Source: Rarobacter incanus
GTDB taxonomy: Bacteria > Actinomycetota > Actinomycetes > Actinomycetales > Cellulomonadaceae
Length of the DNA: 64,000 nucleotides
Assembly: GCF_006715765.1 (NCBI RefSeq)
Contig: NZ_VFNV01000001.1
Location: 806,001-870,000, forward strand
Direction: 5' to 3'
Shown: one piece after another, positions 17,264-53,405 of the stretch
Layout of the letters: each line of letters opens with the position of its first letter
How positions within the stretch are numbered: the first letter of the stretch is position 1
The notes under the pieces: model-generated
Database searches by the model: none
What the model was told of the DNA's origin: nothing
Seen by the model: only the letters and a program-made list of their open reading frames with translations
Translations under genes and position numbers: made by a program

Positions 17264-18852
<1,589 letters not shown>

Positions 18853-18869: not shown

Positions 18870-20690
18870 TCACTCTTCGCGATCCCACGCGGGCGAGATG
18901 CCGCGGGCGTATTGGATATCGTCGTTGCTTACCCCGGCGGCGACCATCGGCCACACCATGGCATCGCGCGAAACGTTGAAGTCTATGACAACCGGCTGAT
19001 CGTTGATTTCTTGCGCTCGCTTGATCGTCGCGTCGACATCGGATGCGTGCTCGACGCGCAGGCCGGCGCATCCGTATGCTGCGGCCAGCTTCACAAAGTC
19101 GGGGATGCGACGAGTCCCGTGCCCCGTGTGCAAGTCCGTGTTGGAATACCGCTTGTCGTAGAAAAGAGTCTGCCACTGCCGCACCATGCCCAGCGACGAA
19201 TTGTTGATGAGCGCTACCTTGATCGGTATTTCATTTATCACGCAGGTCGCTAGTTCTTGGTTTGTCATCTGGAAACATCCGTCGCCATCGATCGCCCAGA
19301 CTTCGCGGTCCGGTTCGCCTACCTTGGCGCCCATCGCCGCGGGGATGGAGAAGCCCATGGTGCCCAGCCCACCGGAGTTGATCCAGGTGTTCGGCCGTTC
19401 GTAGCGGATGAACTGGGACGCCCACATCTGGTGCTGCCCCACCCCGGCCACGTAAATGGCGTCGGGTCCGGCCAACTGGCCCAGCCTCTCTATAACGTGC
19501 TGCGGCGCGAGCAGCCCGTCCGCGGTTGGCGTGTAACCCAGCGGGTAGGTTTCCCGCCAGTCGTCGATCTGCCGCCACCACGCACCCAGGTCTGGTTTGC
19601 CGTGCAGCTCGTGCTCACGGGCCAGTTCGGGAAGCAGATCCGTGATGACTTCCTTGAGGTCGCCGACGATCGGCACATCGACCTCGCGGTTCTTGCCGAT
19701 CTCCGCGGGGTCAATGTCCGCGTGAATGATGGCCGCCCGCGGCGCGAAGCTGGAAAGCTTGCCCGTAACTCGGTCATCGAACCGAGCACCGAGCGCAACG
19801 ACCAAGTCGGCCTTTTGCAGCGCGGCGACTGCGGCGACCGTGCCGTGCATGCCGGGCATGCCGAGGTTCTGCGGGTGGGAATCGGGCAGCGCCCCGCGTG
19901 CCATGAGGGTGGTCACAACCGCCGCACCGGACTCGTCGGTGAGCTTGCGTAGCACCTGCGACGCACCCGAGCGGATGATGCCTCCGCCGACGTACAAGAC
20001 GGGGCGTTTCGCCGCCGCGAGCAACCTCGCGGCCTCGCGGATCTGCTTTCCGTGGGGCTTGGTGACGGGCCGGTACCCCGGAAGCACGAGTTCGTTGGGC
20101 CAGGAAAACTTGGTCGTGGCCTGCAACGCCGATTTGGCCACGTCGACCAGGACCGGTCCCGGGCGTCCCGTCGCGGCAATGTGGAATGCCTCGGCGATAA
20201 CGCGGGGGATGTCGGCTGCGTCCGTCACAAGGAAGTTGTGCTTGGTGACCGGAAGAGTTATGCCAACAATGTCCGCTTCCTGAAACGCGTCGGTACCGAT
20301 CATGGAGGCGCCGACCTGCCCGGTGATAGCGACCATGGGGATCGAGTCCATGTTCGCGTCGGCGAGCGGCGTGACCAGGTTAGTGGCGCCGGGTCCCGAT
20401 GTCGCTATGGTGACCCCGACGCGTCCGGTTGCGTGCGCGTACCCCGAAGCTGCGTGGCCGCCTGCTTGCTCGTGTCGCACCAGTATGTGCCGCAGCTTGG
20501 TGGAATCCATCAGCGGGTCGTACGCGGGAAGAATTGCCCCGCCCGGCAATCCGAAGATCACGTCCGTGCCGGTGGCCTCGATCGATTTGATGAGCGATTG
20601 TGCGCCGGTCATTTCCTGCGGGCGCACTGAATCCGCTACCGTCGCGGCGCTCGGCCCTGGCCTCGCGTTTGCGGATGCGGTGTTTGTCAT
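18870..20690 (-). CDS. ilvB: Acetolactate synthase large (catalytic) subunit
   Basis: ThDP- and FAD-dependent enzyme that makes acetolactate or acetohydroxybutyrate. Features in order: [32 protein letters not shown] with the conserved region leading to the catalytic Glu ([15 protein letters not shown]), the FAD domain, and the ThDP motif [33 protein letters not shown]. Length is 606 aa with a 25-residue low-complexity N-terminal extension. The ATG at 20690 is preceded by AGGAGCAGGAC. A leader peptide and attenuator lie 170-290 bp upstream. Confidence 0.97.
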
Positions 20691-20861: not shown

Positions 20862-20900
20862 AAAAAACCCCTCGTTCCCGGTGGGGAGTATTCGAGGGGT
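20862..20900 (-). terminator. Attenuator terminator of ilvBNC
   Basis: On the minus strand CCCCTCG pairs with CGAGGGG around a loop and is followed by TTTTTTC, a canonical intrinsic terminator. It lies between the Val/Leu leader peptide and ilvB. An alternative pairing, GAGCGCGCAG (within the end of the leader peptide) with CTGCGCGCTC (just upstream of the terminator stem), gives a 10-bp competing hairpin that could act as the antiterminator. Confidence 0.88.
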
Positions 20901-20932
20901 GAGCGCGCAGTCGGTGACCTGAATCGGCAGCC

Positions 20933-20977
20933 TCAGGCTGCGCGCTCAGTAACTACTAGTAGTACGACCGTCTGCAT
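20933..20977 (-). CDS. ilvBNC leader peptide (attenuation peptide)
   Basis: A 14-residue ORF reading MQTVVLLVVTERAA. Six of its residues are branched-chain amino acids: a run of Val-Val-Leu-Leu-Val-Val encoded by GTC GTA CTA CTA GTA GTT, with rare CTA and GTA codons. Its stop overlaps a small hairpin (GCAGCC-TGA-GGCTGC). Ribosome stalling at these codons when Val or Leu is scarce would favour the antiterminator and allow transcription of ilvBNC. The ATG is only 8 bases after a TATGCT hexamer, so the mRNA may start almost at this codon. Confidence 0.88.
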   Translation of the reverse strand: MQTVVLLVVTERAA

Positions 20978-21181
20978 GGTCACCAAGCATACGGCAAAGC
21001 TCGATGAAAGTCATATCCGCCTGCGACCCTAAGCGACCGGTCCCCGCAGAAAGACCGTGTGCGCGGCCCGCGCCGCTCGATCGCGCGCATCGCAACCCGC
21101 CCAGAATGCGGGACCGCGTAACGATCGCACCACATCCACATCGCCCCACCTTGGCCTTCGCTCCACCGCAACCGGTGCGTC
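20978..21181. other. Upstream region of ilvBNC, no gene
   Basis: Apart from the -10 candidate near its left end, these ~200 bp between the ilv leader and the stop of the secreted-protein gene hold no recognisable ORF, RNA gene or strong inverted repeat. Confidence 0.5.
20986..20991 (-). promoter_or_regulatory. Putative -10 element of the ilvBNC operon
   Basis: TATGCT on the minus strand lies 8 bases before the leader-peptide ATG. No convincing -35 is present at 17 bases. The spacing implies a near-leaderless mRNA that begins at the leader peptide. Confidence 0.5.
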
Positions 21182-53101: not shown

Positions 53102-53229
53102 AGGTGGCCCTTTCGGTTGCTCGTTCAACCACAATAGTGCCTGGGAAAAAACGGTCATGTCGGGACATACGTCCCCAATAGGAAAGGCGCGCGCGGCGCG
53201 GCCGGGATCCAGCGGGCGAAAAAGATGAC

Positions 53230-53271
53230 GGGCGCGTCGGCGTGAGGAGGGGGTTACACGCCGACGCGCCC
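53230..53271 (-). terminator. Hairpin with U-rich tail upstream of the VKOR gene
   Basis: GGGCGCGTCGGCGTG (53230-53244) and CACGCCGACGCGCCC (53257-53271) form a perfect 15-bp stem. On the minus strand it is followed by GTCATCTTTTTCG, so it reads as an intrinsic terminator directed at the VKOR gene, about 125 bases before its start. It could attenuate that gene or end a transcript coming from upstream. Confidence 0.6.
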
Positions 53272-53405
53272 GAGCACGACGAGCCGAGTTCTCGATCCCA
53301 GGAGGCACGGCTACAACAATCAGTATCGGCCCCAATTACGGTCCACCGGGTGGGCCCATCGTCCCTGCGATCCCGGCGCGCACCGCGCGCCGCGCGCGGG
53401 TGGGT

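Follow-up and report, generated by a model that had tools for sequence, protein, structure and literature searches.

The ilvBNC operon of Rarobacter incanus is preceded by a leaderless, translation-coupled branched-chain transcription attenuator of the ilvL kind of actinobacteria, a reading to which we give a probability of roughly 85%. In the window, i.e. the whole stretch of 64,000 nucleotides that was analysed, a sequence check places the complete feature on the minus strand (Table 1): a Val/Leu-rich ORF stands at the transcript start as judged from the promoter position, an intrinsic terminator with a U tract follows before ilvB, and the three genes of the operon lie downstream. Leaderless ilvB attenuation is already known, and the R. 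incanus locus joins it. The textbook switch does not fit here, because the two hairpins of the leader, P1 and the terminator, stand end to end and have no strand in common.

Table 1. Features of the ilvBNC leader region in the window and of the related leader at citramalate synthase.
Feature	Position	Strand	Basis and remarks
-35 element ATGACT	21009..21014	-	sequence; 17 nt from -10; [GA]TGAC[AT] in 88/88 family leaders
-10 element TATGCT (TAnnnT)	20986..20991	-	sequence; 8 nt before ATG; TAnnnT in 88/88
predicted transcription start	20977..20980	-	inferred from -10 position; 0-3 nt before/at leader ATG; leaderless in mapped relatives
leader peptide ORF MQTVVLLVVTERAA	20933..20977	-	14 codons; ATG at 20977, TGA 20935-20933
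P1 5' arm TGAGCGCGCAG	20938..20948	-	covariation; inside end of leader ORF
P1 3' arm CTGCGCGCTCA	20900..20910	-	covariation; exact complement of TGAGCGCGCAG
terminator 5' arm ACCCCTCG	20893..20900	-	covariation; abuts P1
terminator 3' arm CGAGGGGT	20867..20874	-	covariation
U tract (T6)	20862..20867	-	sequence
ilvB, acetolactate synthase large subunit	18870..20690	-	NCBIfam NF005860, 1115 bits; likely ATG start 20690, GGAG upstream
ilvN, acetolactate synthase small subunit	18328..18852	-	NCBIfam NF008864
ilvC, ketol-acid reductoisomerase	17264..18292	-	NCBIfam NF004017
leader ORF MSGEIIIRERA	L197:1349-1384 = G000:C1:2326463-2326498		directly before citramalate synthase

Promoter, leader peptide and codons

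The original prediction of an ilvBNC attenuator whose leader peptide is nearly leaderless finds good support in a comparison within the family Cellulomonadaceae, where the same leader was found at 88 of 90 ilvB loci. All 88 leaders carry a [GA]TGAC[AT] -35 element that is followed after 17 or 18 nt by a TAnnnT -10 element and after a further 6-8 nt by the start codon; 76 of them use GTG and 12 use ATG. The TATGCT that had been pointed out 8 bases before the ATG is indeed present and is accompanied by ATGACT 17 nt further upstream; TAnnnT is also the -10 motif of mapped S. lividans promoters. A scan for sigma-70 consensus promoters gave no match, because actinobacterial TAnnnT promoters lie outside that consensus. 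Since the predicted transcript start lies no more than 3 nt from the ATG, ribosomes would have to begin directly at the 5' end, in the absence of a Shine-Dalgarno site. This consequence is not new, because leaderlessness has been mapped in S. lividans, reported in C. glutamicum and named in a title from 2000 (see below). The leader ATG and the ilvB ATG are 287 nt apart. In the stretch examined of another genome of the same genus (L003), an ilvB leader was not recognisable.

The six-residue branched-chain run expected in the short ORF is found as VVLLVV in MQTVVLLVVTERAA and is encoded by GTC GTA CTA CTA GTA GTT. Four of these six positions are filled by GTA and CTA, which are the least used synonymous codons or close to it and account for only 4.5% of the Val codons and 3.3% of the Leu codons, respectively, in the genes of the window, and GTA makes up 82% of the Val codons in the family leaders. 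The GTA conservation may be owed in part to a weak 5' hairpin, hence the codon bias alone is no proof. A 5' hairpin of the family leaders (GUGC..ACGA/UCGU..GUAC) was considered as a structural element and set aside; it does not overlap P1 and is unformed in the window. Generally, the leader codons match the gene that follows, with Val/Leu/Ile in front of ilvB, Ile-Ile in front of citramalate synthase and Leu-Leu-Leu in front of leuS.

These observations bear on the explanation that the locus contains a fixed partial terminator, or is controlled by a protein or small molecule rather than by leader translation, the ORF being kept for another reason. Codon changes in the S. coelicolor ilvB leader, reported to be without effect as cited in PMC1262725, agree with this explanation and count against the attenuator that we favour; moreover, no classical switch is visible at the locus. 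It is difficult to reconcile with leader codons that match the pathway at ilvB, citramalate synthase and leuS alike, with the conservation of rare codons and with the loss of the response upon codon changes in C. glutamicum and M. tuberculosis (PMC11857589, PMC13236596). Furthermore, an Rfam scan gave no relevant riboswitch or T-box family and only two weak, unrelated matches. We regard control by such other means as very improbable.

The hairpin pair and its geometry

P1 and the terminator are both real. The fold of the leader reaches -51.7 kcal/mol (z -3.3), which none of 200 dinucleotide shuffles equalled, and in the alignment of 54 leaders from many families 89.7% of the cells of the two helices are paired. 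In this alignment, both sides of a pair were changed in 66 cells, compared to 24 in shuffles, with 0 of 500 shuffles reaching 66; these counts should not be read as probabilities because the sequences are related. Sliding the 3' partners by only 1-3 columns resulted in a sharp loss of pairing. The family-only alignment gave the same picture, with 29 double changes versus a shuffle maximum of 11. Because it is conserved and covarying, the leader structure is not due to chance.

A covariance model built from the 54 leaders recognised the ilvB leader of its own genome with E 1.3e-20, by far the best match there, and matched 129 of 148 genomes and 75 of 82 genera sampled across the class, counted by model match and not by the gene context of each match. 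One family with small genomes (f29, 1.2-2.2 Mb) was almost entirely without a match; the R. incanus genome has a size of 2.49 Mb. A second place in the window, upstream of a VKOR-family gene (53219-53284, minus strand), scored 27 bits with the ilvB leader model; there, GGGCGCGTCGGCGTG and CACGCCGACGCGCCC form a strong hairpin that is followed by a T-rich tail. It was rejected as an ilvB-type leader, since it reads as an ordinary GC-rich terminator.

The original prediction also named an intrinsic terminator with six U and a mutually exclusive antiterminator. The terminator was recovered with the arms ACCCCTCG and CGAGGGGT and the TTTTTT behind them. The proposed antiterminator arms, GAGCGCGCAG at 20947-20938 and CTGCGCGCTC at 20910-20901, are perfectly complementary to each other, but they do not exclude the terminator: the helices are adjacent with at most one base in common (A20900), one folded structure accommodates both, and the terminator arms have no alternative partner above chance. 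Among 86 family leaders, the linker between P1 and the terminator, with helices extended as far as pairing goes, measures -1 in 44, 0 in 19, +1 in 11, +2 in 10 and +4 in 2 cases, the latter being doubtful terminator calls. Thus, the strand exchange that characterises a classical trp-type attenuator was not found, as the linker lies between -1 and +2 in 84 of 86. Outside the family the same range holds for 49 of 58 leaders, in a search that permitted -6 to +12, and it is kept in nearly all leaders even though the span of P1 varies from about 24 to 67 nt. The Mycolicibacterium ilvB leader L168 differs from most of the class by a P1 that overlaps the terminator by 4 nt, and such overlap may be a derived feature of the Mycobacteriales.

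In a classical trp-type arrangement, P1 would serve for protection or pausing, and upon ribosome stalling a terminator arm would pair with an antiterminator distinct from P1. The published C. glutamicum model with three hairpins and a 3-nt overlap between antiterminator and terminator is in line with this arrangement, as is the 4-nt overlap in L168, and many family members have a UGAGG at the stop codon with which the CCUCG of the terminator could pair. However, this last pairing has only chance energy and is absent in the sister leader L002, hence it was discarded. Another candidate, the pairing of a CTC codon with the terminator 3' arm (CUUCUCG:CGAGGGG), is frequent in the family and absent from both the window leader and L002; it was likewise rejected. 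When duplex energies of the terminator arms with the upstream leader were compared with dinucleotide shuffles, nothing above chance was detected (mean z +0.38 for the 5' arm and +0.12 for the 3' arm), which argues against a hidden partner. Together with the folding results below, this makes a trp-type switch unlikely in our view.

Ribosome position and proposed antitermination

The effect of translation was evaluated in a folding model in which the nucleotides covered by the ribosome were removed and its front edge was assumed to lie 13 nt from the first A-site base. The probability of the terminator is about 1 for every ribosome position, which also speaks against the trp-type arrangement. 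In contrast, P1 of the window leader can form with the A site as far along as the CTA of residue 7, but not one codon further; its probability falls from 1.0 to 0.05 between this CTA and the next GTA. Therefore, at the level of equilibrium pairing, the ribosome sharply controls P1 and not the terminator. A ribosome at the two final codons of the run, GTA and GTT, would cover part of P1, which counts against our preferred explanation.

The combination of ribosome control of P1, codons matched to the pathway and a constant abutment leads us to propose that P1 is the element that has to be absent for termination. With ample Val-tRNA and Leu-tRNA, the ribosome would reach the stop codon and mask the P1 5' arm, so that the terminator could form and transcription would end. 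If charged Val or Leu tRNA is scarce, the ribosome would be held at GTC GTA CTA CTA, P1 would fold ahead of it and the polymerase would continue into ilvBNC. Because P1 does not overlap the terminator, we suggest that it antiterminates by abutment and not by strand exchange: where P1 ends the terminator begins, so that no unpaired RNA would be left to pass through the exit channel, and the lower, last pairs of the terminator could not close inside the RNA polymerase while P1 stands. This abutment step, taken across the whole class as an abutting antiterminator hairpin driven by leaderless translation and working without strand exchange in the ilvB, citramalate synthase and leuS leaders, is tentative, and we would put it somewhat below even odds; the higher probability given at the outset applies to the leaderless attenuator as such.

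Two experimental results count against abutment, namely the S. coelicolor codon changes mentioned above, reported to be without effect, and a start-codon change in C. glutamicum. Changing the leader ATG in C. glutamicum lowered expression by 80% (PMC11857589), whereas a free, antiterminating P1 predicts high expression without translation; it must be mentioned that this change also alters the first bases of the transcript. Alternatively, P1 could do no more than make transcription pause so that polymerase and ribosome stay in step, and a pausing role has been proposed for hairpin H1 in C. glutamicum. However, the expected pause site, 10-12 nt past P1, falls into the variable loop of the terminator, and antitermination would be left unexplained, which makes a role in pausing alone rather improbable.

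Related leaders and known systems

In other families, the covariance model gave secondary matches ahead of citramalate synthase, with Ile codons, and ahead of leuS, with Leu-Leu-Leu codons, and the linker between P1 and the terminator measures -1 to +3 nt at these leaders. The Ile-codon leaders (L171-L174, L176-L181, L183-L186, L188-L190, L192, L194, L195) stem from other actinobacterial families and precede citramalate-synthase-like genes; their hairpins abut, and most of them show a promoter-like hexamer shortly ahead of the start. The motif DTTLRDG was present at 20 of 26 examined loci of the citramalate synthase type, and two tested proteins scored 650 and 622 bits to TIGR00977. R. incanus itself has such a leader. 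Upstream of its citramalate synthase (G000:C1:2326615) we found GTGAGCGGTGAAATCATTATTCGCGAGCGCGCCTGA with the ORF MSGEIIIRERA, in which three codons are for Ile, and behind it an abutting hairpin pair and T7; judged from its sequence, this leader appears to be the isoleucine version of the ilvB switch in the same genome. Our literature search gave no description of a citramalate synthase leader, which does not exclude that one exists. The leuS leaders, found at three loci (L175, L191, L196), encode Leu-Leu-Leu, for example in MRTGLLLTEPR, and have the matching hairpin pair. Leaders of this type had been predicted for Streptomyces in 2005, and in S. lividans their leaderless start has been mapped (PMC8079986). 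The citramalate synthase and leuS leaders thus extend the codon logic to three genes. The ilvB locus clearly exemplifies a switch that the majority of the class uses, antibiotic producers among them, and the mycobacterial form operates in tuberculosis bacteria. The end-to-end geometry of the hairpins across the class, which we did not find described in the literature, may be new.

In the trp, leu and ilv attenuators of E. coli, control of an intrinsic terminator is exerted through ribosomal translation of a leader peptide, and rare codons are involved. These systems have a Shine-Dalgarno site and exchange strands between antiterminator and terminator, unlike the leader described here.

Leaderless ilvB attenuation is known from C. 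glutamicum and further Corynebacterium species, Streptomyces and Mycobacterium, and the leaders were predicted in 2005 (PMC1262725). The closest counterpart is ilvBNC of C. glutamicum (Morbach 2000; Ryabchenko 2025, PMC11857589; ilvB-II motif, Narunsky 2023, PMC10272879), which has the same operon and branched-chain codons; its transcription starts one nt from the leader start codon, as PMC11857589 states citing Morbach 2000, whose title already mentions that the leader peptide is formed in the absence of a ribosome binding site. The leader is 292 nt long compared to 287 nt here, and in both cases P1 overlaps the end of the ORF and the terminator carries a U tract. The two differ in that the C. 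glutamicum antiterminator and terminator have 3 nt in common and a third hairpin overlaps, whereas here at most 1 nt is common.

The S. lividans leaders ilvL (MRTRILVLGKRVG) and leuL2 resemble the present ones in the leaderless start, experimentally mapped for the ilvB equivalent, the nTGACn/TAnnnT promoter, the hairpin, the U tract and the genes served (PMC8079986). They were described there by RNA-seq, in an account in which we found no analysis of hairpin geometry.

Changes of codons or terminator alter expression in C. glutamicum and M. tuberculosis (PMC11857589, PMC13236596). The M. tuberculosis ilvB1 leader (PMC13236596) shares the GTA codon, the terminator and the proposed logic with the R. 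incanus leader: stalling at its sensor codons LVVI favours the antiterminator, which is masked once the ribosome has reached the stop codon. Abutment would fit this published logic, save for the shared strands, as the M. tuberculosis antiterminator and terminator are described as mutually exclusive folds and its Mycolicibacterium relative shows the overlap mentioned above. The conserved end-to-end geometry questions the mechanism of the published 'mutually exclusive' switch.
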